A program made the position numbers and the translations under genes. The notes under the pieces are model-generated. The model ran no database searches and had not been told where the DNA came from. It saw only the letters and a list, made by a program, of their open reading frames with translations. From Acidobacteriota bacterium (lineage in GTDB: Bacteria; Acidobacteriota; Terriglobia; Terriglobales; Acidobacteriaceae), in contig JAGWRX010000166.1 in assembly GCA_028876395.1 (NCBI GenBank), positions 1 through 32,506 on the forward strand: a DNA stretch of 32,506 nucleotides, in the 5' to 3' direction. How positions within the stretch are numbered: the first letter of the stretch is position 1; each line of letters starts with the position of its first letter. Positions 7,400 through 13,280 of this stretch are shown piece by piece.

Positions 7400-7945
7400 T
7401 CATGCGCCGCTTTTTCCGGGGTGCATCCACTCGGGCGACGCTTCTTCCAGGGTCTTCAACTCCTGCCGTACCCGCTGCGCGAGCTTGTCCGGGCTGAGGT
7501 GCGTGCTGAGGTGGCACGCTCCAAAGAAATACTTCGGCAGCCGGGACTCCGTCAACCACTGCGTCTTGGGGAAAAACGCAACGGTGACAAGAATGCCGAG
7601 CGTCACGATGACCGCGCCCTGGAACAAGCCAAAGAGCGCGCCCGCCAACCGGTCCAGGCAGCCAAGGCCAATCTTGTGCAGCGCCTTTGACAGCAGCGAA
7701 CCCGTCATGGCCGCCACCGCCATGACGACCAGGGCGATCAGCAGGAAGCCAATGGCGTTGGCGGCTTTCTCATTGTGCACCGCGTGCCTGAGCACTGTTC
7801 CGATGCGCTGGTAATTCCATGCCGCCAGGACGAGGCCCAGAATGAGTCCGCCCAGCGAGAAGACCGAGCGCAGAAAACCCTGCGCCAGTCCTCCCAGCAC
7901 TGCCCCGGCAAGGAGCGCCACGATGATCCAGTCCACCAGTGTCAC
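7400..7945 (-). CDS. cvpA: CvpA-family membrane protein
   Basis: Integral inner-membrane protein of 181 aa with four hydrophobic segments in the N-terminal 140 residues and a soluble C-terminus. The opening MTLVDWIIVALLAGAVLGGLAQGFLR and the LDRLAGALFGLFQGAVIV segment are typical of the CvpA family. E. coli CvpA is needed for colicin V production and envelope robustness, and cvpA is co-transcribed with purF there; here it follows purC by 12 bp, a comparable link to purine synthesis. The start is a GTG at 7945. The biochemical role of the family is not settled. Confidence 0.88.
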   Translation of the reverse strand: MTLVDWIIVALLAGAVLGGLAQGFLRSVFSLGGLILGLVLAAWNYQRIGTVLRHAVHNEKAANAIGFLLIALVVMAVAAMTGSLLSKALHKIGLGCLDRLAGALFGLFQGAVIVTLGILVTVAFFPKTQWLTESRLPKYFFGACHLSTHLSPDKLAQRVRQELKTLEEASPEWMHPGKSGA

Positions 7946-7957
7946 GTTCGCTCCGTT

Positions 7958-8857
7958 TTATCTCGCCAAATCAAGATCCCGCCCGGTGATCCGGCGGAAT
8001 GCCTCAAGGTATTTGGCCAGAGTGCGCTCGACCACGTCTTCAGGCAGGCCGGGCGCGGGTGCCTGCTTGTTCCAGTGAATGCTTTCGAGATAATCGCGCA
8101 CAAACTGCTTGTCAAACGACGGCTGCGCGCCTCCGGGCTGCCAGGCGGCGGCCTCCCAGAAGCGGGAAGAGTCCGGCGTCAGCACCTCGTCGGCGAGCAC
8201 GATGCCGCCTTCTATCGTGCCGAACTCGAATTTTGTGTCGGCAAGGATGAGGCCGTGTGCTTCAGCGTGGCCGGCGGCCCTGCGATAGATGGCCAGAGTG
8301 AGGCGCCGCAACTCGGCAGCGACATCCGCGCCGAGGAGCTTTTCCGTCGCAGCAAACGAAATGTTTTCATCGTGGGCCCCGTCCTGGCTTTTGGTTGCGG
8401 GCGTGAAGACCGGCTCCGGCAGGCGCGACCCATCCTGCAACCCAGCCGGAAGAGGAATGCCGCAGACCGTTCCGCCGGCCTTGTATTCCTTCCAGCCGGA
8501 ACCTGCCAGATAGCCGCGCGCCACGCACTCCACGGGGAACATCTTCGCCCGCTTGACGAGCATCGAGCGGCCTTCGAGCTGGTCGCGGTAGGGTTGGAGC
8601 GAGGCAGGGAACTCCGCGACCTGCGCCGTAATCAGATGATTGGCGACGACGTCCGACAGCAGATTGAACCAGAAGAGGGACATCTGGGTCAGGATTTTTC
8701 CCTTCCCCGGAATGCCTGTGGCGAGCACATGATCGAAGGCTGAGATGCGGTCGGTGGCCACAAGCAGCAGCGCATCGCCGACGGCATAGAGGTCGCGCAC
8801 TTTGCCCCGGCCAAGCAGCGGAGTTGAACCCAGATTCGTTGTGAGCAGAGCTGTCAT
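7958..8857 (-). CDS. purC: Phosphoribosylaminoimidazole-succinocarboxamide synthase (SAICAR synthetase)
   Basis: Cytoplasmic enzyme of de novo purine synthesis that joins CAIR and aspartate with ATP to give SAICAR. The 299-aa protein carries the family's signatures: GRGKVRDLYAVGD near residue 18, ATDRISAFDHVL, the MLVKRAKMFPVECVARGYLAGSGWKEY block, and the LADTKFEFG and LTPDSSRFW motifs. Its length and N-terminus match the roughly 300-aa, yeast-ADE1-like form rather than the shorter 237-aa E. coli type. The start is an ATG at 8857. It is the first gene of the minus-strand run purC-cvpA-fis-like-HAD-secretin, with gaps of 12 to 62 bp or overlap, so one operon is likely. Confidence 0.96.
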   Translation of the reverse strand: MTALLTTNLGSTPLLGRGKVRDLYAVGDALLLVATDRISAFDHVLATGIPGKGKILTQMSLFWFNLLSDVVANHLITAQVAEFPASLQPYRDQLEGRSMLVKRAKMFPVECVARGYLAGSGWKEYKAGGTVCGIPLPAGLQDGSRLPEPVFTPATKSQDGAHDENISFAATEKLLGADVAAELRRLTLAIYRRAAGHAEAHGLILADTKFEFGTIEGGIVLADEVLTPDSSRFWEAAAWQPGGAQPSFDKQFVRDYLESIHWNKQAPAPGLPEDVVERTLAKYLEAFRRITGRDLDLAR

Positions 8858-8989
8858 GGAAGGGACTTACCTCGGCGGAAACTGAATCTCCGATTTTCCG
8901 GCGTGAGCCGCGGTTTGTCAATGTGACGGCCGCGCCGCGCAGGCCTTGAATCATGCAGGAAACATTGCTTTAGGACTAGTTTAAACCTG

Positions 8990-9005
8990 TGTGATGACCG
9001 TCACA
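8990..9005. promoter_or_regulatory. Perfect TGTGA-N6-TCACA palindrome (CRP/FNR-superfamily-like operator)
   Basis: The sequence TGTGATGACCGTCACA is a perfect match to the half-site spacing recognised by Crp-type regulators. It sits 133 bp upstream of the purC start and at the 5' side of the candidate plus-strand RNA. The match is visible in the sequence; binding by any protein is inference, and the palindrome could also be a 5' hairpin of the RNA. Confidence 0.45.
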
Positions 9006-9251
9006 GATCGAGAAGCGGTTTTGGGGGAAACTCCAATTGTCAACATGGTTCGGAGGACGGGCAAGAAAGTCCTCTTTGAGCCGGGCGACACGAGGCAGCA
9101 GTGGAAAGGGGAAGCCGCGGCTAGCTTCGTTTCATAGGGATCACCAGTAGCCGCGCGCTACCGACCTCCAGCGTCGGCTACTGGTCCCCGTCTTCATCTT
9201 GTGTAAGACAAGCGCCTCCGAAGAGAAGAGTTCCTTCGGAGGCGATTTTTT
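9006..9251 (+). ncRNA. Candidate structured non-coding RNA between purC and smc
   Basis: This stretch has no credible ORF but ends in a strong plus-strand terminator, although no plus-strand gene precedes it: purC and smc are both on the minus strand. Before the terminator it holds at least three hairpins: 9047-9082 (outer GGTTC/GAGCC, inner GGAC/GTCC), 9111-9128 (GAAGC/GCTTC) and 9142-9184 (ACCAGTAGCCG/CGGCTACTGGT, 11 bp). The 5' end is uncertain; no clear -35/-10 pair was found. I could not match it to 6S, SRP, tmRNA, RNase P or a known riboswitch by eye. The call rests on the terminator, the structure and the absence of an ORF. Confidence 0.45.
9212..9251 (+). terminator. Rho-independent terminator (plus strand)
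   Basis: The arm CGCCTCCGAAG (9213-9223) pairs perfectly with CTTCGGAGGCG (9234-9244), followed by A and six T (9246-9251). The T-run lies only on the plus-strand side, so it does not terminate smc. It is the best evidence for a plus-strand transcript in this gap. Confidence 0.85.
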
Positions 9252-9309
9252 GCCTTTTCGCGGTCAGCTCACATTCTTCAACGGCTCGGCAGCGAGAGGT
9301 GCATGAGCG

Positions 9310-12300
9310 CTATGCTGTGGCCCGTTGCTGCTCGTGCCCGCCCAGGCGCACGCTGACGACCTTCGACACGCCCGGCTCCTGCATGGTCACGCCGTAGATC
9401 ATATCTGCGGAGTGCATCATGCGCTTGGAGTGGGTCACCACAAGGAATTGCGTCTCCATGCTCAGCGAGTGCAGCAGATCCGCCAGCCTGCCCACGTTGG
9501 TCTCGTCCAGCGCGGCGTCCACTTCGTCGAGCACGCAGAAGGGGCTGGGCCGGAATTGGAAAATGCCCACCAGCAGCGAGAGGGCAGTCAGCGCCTTTTC
9601 GCCGCCGGAGAGCAGCAGCACATTCTGCAGCTTCTTGCCCGGCGGCGAGGCCACGATGTCCAGGCCGCTTTCAGCCTGATTCTCTGCGTCCGTGATGCGC
9701 AGGAAGGCCTGGCCTCCCTGGAACAGGCGGGAAAAGACCTTGCCGAAGTTTTCGTTGATCTGCGCAAACGCTTCGTCAAACCTGGTGCGCGAAATCTGGT
9801 CGATCTCCTTGATTGTCTCCTGCGTGTTCTCAATGGACTCGATGAGATCCCTGCGCTGTGTTTCGAGGAATCCGTGGCGCTCGGCCGTTTCCTTGTACTC
9901 GTCGAGTGCCATCATGTTTACCGGGCCCATCTGCTCGATGCGCTGGCGCAGCCCGCGGCATGTCTCGTCTTCGGCAGCTAGAGCCTCGCCGGCCAGGTGC
10001 ACAATCTCCGTGTCGGCGCGCAGCGCAGCCGCCTCGACATTGACTTCGGTCAGGCAGCTTCCCTCCAGGTGCTCCAGATCCGAGCGCAGTCTGGCCGCCT
10101 CGCTGGAACGGTTGGCGCGGTCTTCACGCAACTGATCCAGCGCGGCACGAGCGGTCTTCAACTGCGTCTCCATCGAGGCCAGCTGCTGGCGCAGGGCTTG
10201 CGCCTGGGCGGACATTGTCTGCGCTTGGGCCAGCGCCTCGGCGCGCTGTGCCGTAAGCTCCTGCGCACGCTGCGCCAACTCGGCGCTCTCGCGGATGCGC
10301 TGTTCACGCTCCGCCTCTGCCGCGGCACGCTGCTGCTCAAGGGCCAGTACGCGGCGTTCGAGATCGGCATGGAGCCGGTCAATACGCTGGAAGGCTGCCT
10401 CCGCGCCACGCCGGCGCTCCTCGAGACCCGCCAGCTCCGCGGTGACCTGCGCGGCTTCCTGCTGCAAGCCTTCGCGCCTCTGGCGCAATGCGGCCAGCTG
10501 CGCCTGCAACTCCTCCAGCGCCGACTCCGCCGTAGCGTGTTCAGCTTCCAGGCGCACTGCCTCTTCGCGCTTCTGCCCGATCACGGCAAGCTTGGCGTCG
10601 CGCGCATCCTTGTTGCGCGCGGCCTGGAGGGACCACTCCTGCAAGCGCCTCTCAACGCGCTGCGTCTCGGCCTCCATCTGCTTGAGCGCCGCGCCCTGGT
10701 CGGCGGCCTCGCGCTCGGCCATGCGCCGCTCCTCGCTGCGCGTTTCCAGCTGCGCAGTGAGTTCCGCAATGGTGCGGGTCAGGGCTGCTGCTTCAGCCTC
10801 AGCCTGCTCGAGGTCCTTCTCCAGCCCGGCCAGGCGGGCGTCAATCTCGCGCAGTTCGCGCTTCAGGGCAAGCGGGCCTTCGCTGGCCGGCTTGCCGCCG
10901 GTTACTGTCGCGTTGTGGAAGCACTCGCCCTCAGGCGTGAGGAAAAATGCATGGCTGTGCTCACCTGCCAGCCGCTGTGCCTCGGCAGCGCTTGCCACCA
11001 GATATCCGTGCCTCAGCTTGGGCAGAATCGTCTCCAGCGACCGCCCAAAGCCGTTCAGCACCCGGATGGTGTACTTGAGCGGCGTGATGCCGGGAGCGCT
11101 GATTGCGTCGTAGTGGCCATTGTCCGTGCCGCCTTGCCCGGCATCCTCCGGGTGAATCAGGAACGTAGCGCGGCCGTCCACGCCCGACTTCAGCATGCGG
11201 ACGCCCTCTTCAGCGGCGGTCCAACTTTCAACCACTACGTAATTCAGCTCGTCGCGCAGGAACTCGTCCACTACGCCCTCGTGCGCGCCGCTGACCTCCA
11301 GGAAGTCCGCCAGCGTGCCTACTGGCGCCATGCCCTGCGCCAGCGCGCCGGGCTTGAGCAGACGCCGCACCGTGTCAGTGGAGTAGCTGTGGTCGCGAAT
11401 CAGCGCTGCCAGCGAGTTGCGCCTGCCGGTCGCCGTGGCTTGCGCACTGCGCAGCTGGTTGGCGCGGGCGCGAAGGGCATCTTCCTCGGCACGGCGCGCC
11501 TGCAGATTCTCGCGCAGTGCCACGATGTCGCTTTCAAGCTGCCTGAGCGACTCGCCTGCGGACTCAAAGCGCAGCTTTGCCTGCCCGCTCTGCACGCCCA
11601 TGTGCTCGAGCTCATTGCGCGCCTGGCCCATCTCGGCCTCAAGCCGCTCCGCCTCGCGCTCCAGGGCTGCGAGGCTCTCTTCAGCCTGGGCGGTGCTGTT
11701 GCGCGCGTTGCCGGCCTGGGCGAGCAGGTGCATGGCGTGGCGGCGGCTGGATTCCAACTGGCGCTCCGCGCTGAAGACTTCTTCGGCTGCCGCGCGCGCC
11801 TCCTGCTGACGCGCTTCCACCTTCTGATGAAAGGCCCGCGCCTCGCCGGCCGCCGTTTCAAGAAAGCTGTGCTGCTGCGTGCGCTCCTCGGCAATGCCGC
11901 TCAACTGCGTCCGCGTCTGCTCCAGCTCGGCGGCGGCCGCGGCCAGCCGCGCCTCCAATTCGCCGATGCGCTCGCCGTTGCTGCGTTCCCGCGCCACGGC
12001 GCGCTCCAACTCCACGGCAGCGGCGTTGGCACGATTCTGCGCCTCCTGGCCCTCTCGCTCGAGTTCGTAGCCGCGCTCGGTGAGCGAGTGCTGGCTGGCC
12101 TCCTGCGTTGCAATTTCGGCTGCCGAGGCGTTGATGCGTTCGGTCAGGCCGGCAATCTCCTGTTCAAGGCGCGCCTGGTCGGCATCCATCGCAGCCATGC
12201 GGCTGGCGAGCACCACGCGCAGACGGCTGCGGAGTTCGTCGCGCACCGCGGCGTACCGCTCAGCTTTTGACGCCTGCCGCTTCAGGCTGTTCATCTGGCG

Positions 12301-13131
12301 AGTGACTTCCTCAAAGATATCGTCGACGCGCGCCAGGTTCTGCCTGGAGCTTTCGAGCCGCAATTCGGCCAGCCGCTTCTTGGTCTTGAAACGGGTGATG
12401 CCTGCGGCCTCTTCGATAATGGCACGCCGGTCGTGCGGCTTCGAGCTGAGCAGTTGCCCAATCTGCTCCTGCGCGATGATGGCGTAGCTGTCCGGCCCCA
12501 GGCCCGTGCCCATGAAAATGTCCTGAATGTCGCGCAACCGGCAGAGCTTGCCGTTGAGCAGATACTCGCTCTCCCCGGTGCGGAACAGCCGCCGGGTGAT
12601 CACAACCTCGCCCTTTTGCGGCGTGCGGTGGAACTTGCGGCGGCGGATCTTGAGCACCACCGCCTGTGGACCTTCAGCAGACTCTGTCGCCTGCGGCTGC
12701 TCCGAATCTTCTTCCTCGATCACCTGCCCGGGCTGTTCGGCAGACATGATCTCCTCGGCCTCGACAGCCCGCTGGCGGCGCAATTCATCCTCGTCCCAGT
12801 CTGCCGGCCCGTCATGGTCCACCACAACTTCCGGTTCAACGGGCACCGGCCCCTCATAGGCCTCGGGGTCGATCATGGTCAGCGTGACCTCGGCCATGCC
12901 GAGCGGCTTGCGGTCACGCGTTCCGGCAAAGATCACATCCTGCATGTGCGTGCCGCGAAGGCTCTTTGCGCTCTGCTCGCCAAGCACCCAGCTCATGCCG
13001 TCCAGGATGTTCGACTTTCCGCATCCATTTGGCCCAACGACCACGGCAATGCCTGTACCCGGAACGGTGAGTTCCGTCCGGTCGCAGAAGCTCTTAAAGC
13101 CGAGGATGTGGATTTTTTTCAGTTTCAGCAT
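9310..13131 (-). CDS. smc: Chromosome segregation SMC ATPase
   Basis: Core subunit of the SMC-ScpAB condensin, an ATP-driven ring that loops and segregates DNA. The 1273-aa protein shows Walker A GPNGCGKSN (33-41), a Q-loop region GPDSYAIIAQEQIGQLLSS, two long Glu/Ala/Arg-rich coiled coils separated by a hinge (around residues 500-690, with a VGTLADFLEV segment), the C-motif LSGGEKALTALSLL (near 1174) and Walker B CVLDEVDAALDE (near 1200). The frame is open to 13185, but the ATG at 13131 has GGAGTG just upstream and begins MLKLKKIHILGFKSF, the usual SMC N-terminus. Odd: an acidic insert of about 75 residues splits the N-terminal ATPase lobe (about residues 88-172). No scpA or scpB lies in the window. 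Confidence 0.96.
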   Translation of the reverse strand: MLKLKKIHILGFKSFCDRTELTVPGTGIAVVVGPNGCGKSNILDGMSWVLGEQSAKSLRGTHMQDVIFAGTRDRKPLGMAEVTLTMIDPEAYEGPVPVEPEVVVDHDGPADWDEDELRRQRAVEAEEIMSAEQPGQVIEEEDSEQPQATESAEGPQAVVLKIRRRKFHRTPQKGEVVITRRLFRTGESEYLLNGKLCRLRDIQDIFMGTGLGPDSYAIIAQEQIGQLLSSKPHDRRAIIEEAAGITRFKTKKRLAELRLESSRQNLARVDDIFEEVTRQMNSLKRQASKAERYAAVRDELRSRLRVVLASRMAAMDADQARLEQEIAGLTERINASAAEIATQEASQHSLTERGYELEREGQEAQNRANAAAVELERAVARERSNGERIGELEARLAAAAAELEQTRTQLSGIAEERTQQHSFLETAAGEARAFHQKVEARQQEARAAAEEVFSAERQLESSRRHAMHLLAQAGNARNSTAQAEESLAALEREAERLEAEMGQARNELEHMGVQSGQAKLRFESAGESLRQLESDIVALRENLQARRAEEDALRARANQLRSAQATATGRRNSLAALIRDHSYSTDTVRRLLKPGALAQGMAPVGTLADFLEVSGAHEGVVDEFLRDELNYVVVESWTAAEEGVRMLKSGVDGRATFLIHPEDAGQGGTDNGHYDAISAPGITPLKYTIRVLNGFGRSLETILPKLRHGYLVASAAEAQRLAGEHSHAFFLTPEGECFHNATVTGGKPASEGPLALKRELREIDARLAGLEKDLEQAEAEAAALTRTIAELTAQLETRSEERRMAEREAADQGAALKQMEAETQRVERRLQEWSLQAARNKDARDAKLAVIGQKREEAVRLEAEHATAESALEELQAQLAALRQRREGLQQEAAQVTAELAGLEERRRGAEAAFQRIDRLHADLERRVLALEQQRAAAEAEREQRIRESAELAQRAQELTAQRAEALAQAQTMSAQAQALRQQLASMETQLKTARAALDQLREDRANRSSEAARLRSDLEHLEGSCLTEVNVEAAALRADTEIVHLAGEALAAEDETCRGLRQRIEQMGPVNMMALDEYKETAERHGFLETQRRDLIESIENTQETIKEIDQISRTRFDEAFAQINENFGKVFSRLFQGGQAFLRITDAENQAESGLDIVASPPGKKLQNVLLLSGGEKALTALSLLVGIFQFRPSPFCVLDEVDAALDETNVGRLADLLHSLSMETQFLVVTHSKRMMHSADMIYGVTMQEPGVSKVVSVRLGGHEQQRATA

Positions 13132-13280
13132 GGTCACTCCGGTTCGTTGGGGCTTTGCACGACTGTGTTTCTTCTTCCGCGGCAACCATCCGGCACAGCC
13201 AACGCGGGAGATGGATTGCCCTTCGATTACAGACTCTAAGGAGCCGCGGGGGCAGGGTCAACGGCGGCAAAACGGGTTTT

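Follow-up and report, generated by a model that had tools for sequence, protein, structure and literature searches.

What is encoded in the 452-nt gap between purC and smc in this member of the Acidobacteriota? In the 32,506-nt stretch of DNA that was analyzed as a whole (the window), both genes lie on the minus strand, purC at 7958-8857 and smc at 9310-13185 (names taken from a first-pass annotation and from the sequence judged by eye), and the gap holds no convincing gene. The first-pass annotation placed an unannotated structured RNA on the plus strand of the gap, pointing to a perfect 11-bp stem followed by six T, to the minus-strand orientation of both neighbors, and to the lack of a plus-strand open reading frame (ORF) ahead of the hairpin. 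These observations hold: the stem and the T run are present exactly as described, both genes are on the minus strand, and the plus-strand ORFs ahead of the hairpin are antisense overlaps of purC, none of them convincing. Comparative evidence indicates that the RNA is real and conserved, with its stems, predicted promoter and terminator kept in relatives. The gene would be divergent from purC and convergent with smc (Table 1), and comparison of sequences leaves its geometry, together with that of its promoter, well supported. The end of the interval first proposed, 9006-9251, stands, but its start was slightly early, since the predicted start is at 9039 and the promoter would occupy 8990-9038. 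Our best reading, to which we give a probability of roughly 0.6, is that the locus encodes a trans-acting small RNA (sRNA) that is activated by a CRP/FNR-family protein and carries an anti-Shine-Dalgarno (anti-SD) loop.

Table 1. Features of the RNA locus in window coordinates, with the weak Rfam matches to the region.
Feature	Position	Strand	Remarks
CRP/FNR-family palindrome TGTGATGACCGTCACA	8990-9005	+	centre 8997.5, -41.5 from predicted start
-10-like hexamer GAAACT (consensus GAMACT)	9027-9032	+	putative promoter element
Structured RNA	9039-9251	+	about 213 nt; start predicted from promoter geometry, end from terminator
Hairpin 1	9039-9089	+	GUC/GAC closing pairs, GGUUC/GAGCC, GGAGGAC/GUCCUC; 8 of 11 main-helix pairs change on both sides
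Hairpin 2	9090-9130	+	loop AAAGGGGAAG at 9105-9114; 8 of 14 pairs change on both sides
Hairpin 3	9137-9188	+	loop ACCGACCUCC at 9160-9169; 14 of 16 main-helix pairs change on both sides
Small linker stem CUUGU/ACAAG	9198-9212	+	consensus fold; five pairs, each conserved in 27 to 29 of 29 sequences, none changed on both sides
Intrinsic terminator with U6	9213-9251	+	stem CGCCTCCGAAG/CTTCGGAGGCG (9213-9223/9234-9244), then A and six T (9246-9251)
Weak Rfam match, MIR7510	terminator hairpin	both	21.9 and 21.7 against 93 bits
Weak Rfam match, CC1840 (Caulobacter sRNA)	region		18 against 50 bits
Weak Rfam match, mir-449	region	-	15.3 against 60.4 bits

Evidence for a structured RNA came from folding and from covariation. 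The plus strand of 9000-9251 folds at -111 kcal/mol, compared with a mean of -85.4 for shuffled sequences (z -5.2; 0 of 200 as good), and the minus-strand fold of the same region is weaker (z -2.6; 2 of 200 shuffles as good). When RNAalifold was applied to a plain MAFFT alignment of 29 full-length sequences (set A2), 66 pairs were predicted, 17 of them with double-sided changes. Two further alignments were made by fitting sequences to the model structure and are therefore biased towards it. In the first, A5 (70 distinct sequences, from 66 named loci minus L054, L078, L093, L109, L114 and L127, which were cut or duplicate, plus 13 others), 97.8% of pair cells are standard and 33 of 48 pairs show a double-sided change; shuffled controls average 10.6 such pairs, with 0 of 500 reaching 33, and sliding one strand by 1-3 columns leaves 9-13. 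In the second, A6 (20 rows, 19 of them distinct, chosen to take in other genera and second copies of the RNA), the figure is 38 of 48 pairs, against 10-17 after sliding. Hairpins 1, 2 and 3 are, on this comparative evidence, each supported by compensatory changes, in agreement with the first-pass annotation, which had counted at least three further hairpins before the terminator and had proposed an alignment of relatives as a check for such changes. Because an alignable counterpart exists in 32 of 60 relatives and the stems covary, we consider the region a real conserved RNA. A small protein gene was considered and rejected: in the window, an ORF of 30 codons opens with the ATG at 9045, but 14 of the 70 sequences have no such ATG, the frame in the remainder measures anything between 5 and 100 or more codons, and no ORF is conserved.

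A blastn search with 8990-9260 gave matches in 32 of 36 same-genus genomes (the organism's own included) and in 0 of 24 others, and the 30 sequences found in this way make up set A1. Covariance models, run with stricter filters under which weak matches are lost, found the RNA in 17 of 399 genomes of the class (model R1, built on the core; one weak partial match, of 24.7 bits over 41 positions in G173, was discarded as chance) and in 55 of 398 genomes of the family (model R2), the latter belonging to 4 of 79 genera, with 46 in the same genus and nine in three others. At least four same-genus genomes had no match to R2, and genomes of the genus with no detected copy include one of 100% completeness (G005). 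When the genomes of named species were scanned for an 18-mer taken from the RNA, 77 stretches were obtained, of which 66 scored above 100 bits and contain all or most of the RNA, six scored 15-21 and five had no match; the locus is common to records of Acidobacteriaceae bacterium, Terracidiphilus sp. and Occallatibacter savannae AB23 (L100). Distant relatives were also sought across the class with a pattern of the two conserved loops, which matched 125 of 399 genomes, and were rejected: counts outside the known genera were about those of a reversed control (by eye, untallied), and, among the matches listed, those outside these genera bore no evident resemblance to the RNA. Four genomes have second copies (G371, L049/L207; G360, L050/L078; G256, L051; G696, L092/L205), in which the upstream box described below is present and no purC was seen in the available sequence.

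The terminator alone proves nothing, because a consensus scan found 4 terminator-like sites against 3.5 expected in shuffled sequence and listed the 9213-9251 hairpin on the minus strand only. A lenient scan of relatives, which had no shuffled control and in which the matches at L110 and L049 are doubtful, found a hairpin followed by a T run directly 3' of the RNA in 67 of 69 sequences (one of the 70 in A5 was dropped). The terminators of other genera are unrelated in sequence: CCCTCCAGGCA/TGCCTGGAGGG in L045 and L201, GGGTTCCGTCGC/GCGACGGAACCC in L046, ACCCCCGG/CCGGGGGT in L047 and L203, and yet others in L200 and L202. Such differences between genera are what comparison would be expected to reveal if selection acted on termination alone. 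The second copies show less regularity: L050 and L051 had no terminator by the scan, and in L207 hairpin 3 runs straight into a T run, CTCTTTTTT.

Upstream of the RNA lies a box, TGTGA-N6-TCAC, that corresponds to the CRP/FNR-family consensus. It could be scored in 68 of the 70 A5 sequences (two were dropped for short upstream sequence); 62 match all nine core bases and six match eight. The distance from the centre of the box to the first paired base of the RNA, the G at 9039, is 41.5 in 61 of these sequences, 42.5 in five, 40.5 in one and 43.5 in one. The hexamer at -12 to -7 reads GAMACT; its A (-11) is present in 65 of 68 sequences and its T (-7) in 67 of 68. At -12 it has G rather than T, which counts against our best reading. 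Moderate conservation was also seen for an ACAAA element at -58 to -54. All eight other-genus loci with upstream sequence have the box (L045, L046, L047, L102, L200, L201, L202 and L203), two of them reading TGTGATGATTATCACA and TGTGATCGATGTCACA. Class II CRP/FNR-activated promoters are arranged in this way, with a TGTGA-N6-TCAC site centred near -41.5 and a -10 element downstream. By its sequence, the region has the features of such a promoter, with the start site a predicted one, and comparative sequence delineates a putative transcription unit together with its structure, box, spacing and loops. Elsewhere in this genome (G000), the pattern GTGAYNRCNRTCAC occurs at nine places (including L135-L141), compared with one or two for the reversed pattern, and there may be a small regulon of such boxes; no clear regulon could be read from seven of the nine.

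The neighborhood is conserved more strongly on one side than on the other, so that the purC-smc setting described at the outset held better for purC. This gene is upstream and divergent in 56 of the 66 named loci, at 166 to 562 nt from the RNA in 55 of them and at 2308 nt in one. Of the ten loci without it, six have too little upstream sequence, two are second copies and two have cvpA but no purC; at these last (L087 and L091), cvpA lies about 520 nt upstream of the RNA with no purC match between, and purC seems to have been moved or lost. In the other genera, purC adjoins the RNA at seven of nine loci (L045, L046, L047, L102, L201, L202 and L203); there is no purC in the 431 nt upstream at L200, and the L061 record has no upstream sequence. 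On the downstream side, smc was found in only 30 of the 66 loci, and the downstream sequence of the 36 loci where it was not found measures 0 to 7893 nt. In the window, the minus strand at 8893-8921, upstream of purC, has a promoter-like TTGACA-17-GAAAAT, the only sigma-70-type match in 7500-11000, and its reverse, TTTGTCAA, was seen in many plus-oriented relatives.

These arrangements bear on three rival explanations. The box might instead serve a repressor or belong to the promoter of the divergent purC, the RNA being otherwise constitutive, as would fit both the frequency with which purC is divergent and the promoter-like -35/-10 for purC at 8921-8893 (minus strand). However, the box is locked to the start of the RNA, whereas purC lies at varying distances from the RNA, and the box accompanies second copies away from purC (L049-L051, L078 and L092); we therefore consider this explanation improbable. 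A cis-acting leader, whether riboswitch or attenuator, of a plus-strand gene would share the usual attenuator anatomy of a structured RNA followed by a terminator, and UUCGGAGG at 9049-9056 is complementary to a terminator arm. Yet the alternative pairing has a probability of 0.000 in the ensemble (9040-9251 folded), the hairpin 1 bases concerned vary between sequences, and after 9251 the window has no convincing plus-strand gene, smc being convergent there and in the 30 loci where it was found. A leader is thus very improbable. Least credible is the suggestion that there is no RNA, and that the conservation reflects a bidirectional smc terminator next to a conserved promoter region. The hairpin does score as a minus-strand terminator too, smc ends at 9310, and 13 of the 30 loci with an identified smc have it less than 400 nt away. 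In the other 17, however, it is 809-4168 nt away, while a terminator-like hairpin follows the RNA almost throughout. This suggestion is disfavored above all because the stems covary, over about 150 nt upstream of the terminator.

If the RNA acts in trans, its loops are candidate points of contact. The cores GGGGAAG (loop 2) and GACCUCC (loop 3) are present in 70 of 70 sequences, and each loop is complete in 68 of them. The 66 named loci were picked with an 18-mer that includes loop 2, which biases its conservation in that set, but both cores are also invariant in the 30 blastn-found sequences of A1, which are free of that bias, and are kept in the 20 rows of A6, including the other-genus matches of the covariance model, to which the bias does not extend either. 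In L047 and L203, the stem has been replaced, UUUUGG-AAAGGGGAAG-CCAAAA standing for GUGG/CCGC, and loop 2 is unchanged. Both loops are predicted to be unpaired in the ensemble of the RNA from the window (P 0.80-1.00). Pairing of loop 3 with a consensus Shine-Dalgarno (SD) sequence is predicted at -10.1 kcal/mol, a value equaled by 8% of shuffled loops, which is modest support. The exact 12-base complement of loop 3 has only three matches outside the RNA in 40 genomes, and no conserved perfect target was found among them. Two other pairings were rejected: loop 2 as an SD mimic that pairs with the 16S tail (37% of shuffled loops as good), and a kissing interaction between loops 2 and 3 (-4.9 kcal/mol; 74% as good).

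Loops that are kept while their stems are rebuilt, on a stable fold, could also be read as the mark of an RNA that binds or titrates a protein through GGGGAAG and GACCUCC rather than pairing with mRNA, and the lack of a perfect conserved antisense target of loop 3 points the same way. Against this, loop 3 is an anti-SD sequence, as expected for mRNA pairing, and no particular protein is indicated. CsrA, the classical titrated protein, was found in 0 of 40 genomes, with a positive control in three named genomes, and a CsrA-titrating RNA of the CsrB/RsmZ type was rejected. Binding of a protein other than CsrA is a possible but rather unlikely explanation. The RNA has the sequence features of a trans-acting sRNA, with its own predicted promoter and terminator and no conserved ORF, and of 40 genomes of the genus, 39 gave a match to an Hfq model above the cut-off (34 at 48-101 bits, five weak at 28-36 bits). 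We favor a trans-acting, CRP/FNR-activated sRNA because its anti-SD loop resembles that of alpha-r14, because loop 3 is predicted to pair with SD sequences, and because Hfq occurs in the genus.

Under the favored reading, a CRP/FNR-family activator would bind TGTGA-N6-TCAC at -41.5, the class II position, and recruit RNA polymerase to the -10-like GAMACT. Transcription would run from about 9039 and stop at the U6 terminator near 9251. The transcript would fold into three hairpins, the third of which would present ACCUCC, the complement of SD sequences, in single-stranded form. Loop 3 would then pair with ribosome-binding sites, probably with Hfq, so that a set of mRNAs would be translated less while the activator is on, and the hairpin 2 loop might be another contact, with mRNA or protein. 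Expression of the RNA, the identity and signal of the activator, the base-pairing mode and the targets are what we infer. A far more speculative possibility, to which we give little credence, is that an oxygen- or metabolite-sensing CRP/FNR regulon of Acidobacteria acts through this RNA on translation at large. Its ACCUCC (anti-SD) and AAAGGGG (SD-like) loops, each borne by a rigid hairpin of its own, would touch the ribosome-binding sites of mRNAs and, at the same time, the 16S tail or the ribosome, damping translation globally.

The RNA matched no Rfam family above threshold. No known family had been recognized by eye in the first-pass annotation, and the Rfam covariance search it had proposed gave no match at gathering score anywhere in the window. 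Relaxing E to as much as 10 brought four weak matches in the region, all far under their thresholds (Table 1), which we took as chance; five divergent members of the RNA gave none with E up to 1. The one candidate that had been offered, 6S RNA, which adjoins purine genes in some bacteria much as this RNA adjoins purC, did not survive: RF00013 had no match in the region with E up to 10. Whereas 6S RNA is a single rod with a central bubble, three separate hairpins are predicted here, a multi-hairpin layout that had itself been noted as unlike the 6S rod. On another contig, a 6S-like match (L031, G000:C212:3327-3511) reaches 42.9 bits, 3.5 under the gathering score of 46.4, and is probably the 6S RNA of this organism. 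Acido-1 (RF01686), with 64 model positions, is likewise a noncoding RNA candidate of Acidobacteria, for which PMC2864571 lists Acido-1 and Acido-Lenti-1. It was rejected too, having no match in the region with E up to 10, and none in 21 genomes of the genus, though no control genome matched either.

Parallels exist with the alpha-r14/NfeR1 and AbcR ("cuckoo") sRNAs of alpha-proteobacteria, which, according to PMC10746234, carry ultraconserved anti-SD loops on differing stems, as does the RNA here on a stem of varying sequence. In that paper, NfeR1 is said to be Hfq-independent and to block the ribosome-binding site of mRNAs, which silences them. The alpha-r14/cuckoo sRNAs have CCUCCUCCC in three loops, whereas here ACCUCC is in one loop and the other loop reads GGGGAAG; CCUCCUCCC is absent from the RNA consensus, which places the RNA outside that family. 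They differ from it also in structure, promoter type and phylum. With the present RNA, an anti-SD loop carried by a stem of drifting sequence is seen in a phylum remote from the alpha-proteobacteria.

Spot 42, CyaR and FnrS are sRNAs of enterobacteria controlled by CRP/FNR-family proteins. In these, as proposed here, a CRP/FNR-type site controls an independent sRNA gene; unlike them, the RNA here has no Rfam match, is larger, has three predicted hairpins, and has its site fixed at -41.5 over four genera. It is apparently a new family of a known kind, the regulatory sRNAs, undescribed as far as we searched: no report of it stood among the papers listed by searches of the open-license literature on Acidobacteria, which is weak evidence of absence, and few regulatory RNAs of this phylum appear in that literature. 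Acidobacteria are abundant in soils and peat. The locus offers a concrete RNA family from this phylum, for which start, end, structure and regulator site are predicted and two loops are candidate contacts. Since the RNA is present in a named strain, O. savannae AB23, its activator and targets are directly testable.

Candidates for the activator can be named. Three proteins of the genome score above the Pfam cut-off for a CRP-type helix-turn-helix, with the recognition helices SRETVTR, TRETVTR and VRELISR (RExxxR). For the first (L130:1492-2229), the nearest solved structures are 4cyd, 4byy and 3r6s, whose entries name transcription regulators, in one case of the CRP/FNR family; we take them to be corynebacterial GlxR, which binds TGTGA-N6-TCACA. 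The first and second proteins have clustered N-terminal cysteines, which may form an iron-sulphur sensor. Orthologs of the L130 protein, the best candidate of the three (at least 80% identity), occur in 35 of 40 genomes of the genus. Tight co-occurrence with the RNA was not borne out, as four of the five genomes lacking an ortholog keep the RNA (G016, G017, G021 and G706), three of these four being 85-88% complete, and G005 lacks both. The L130 candidate adjoins an ORF that resembles, by eye, a tandem universal-stress protein.
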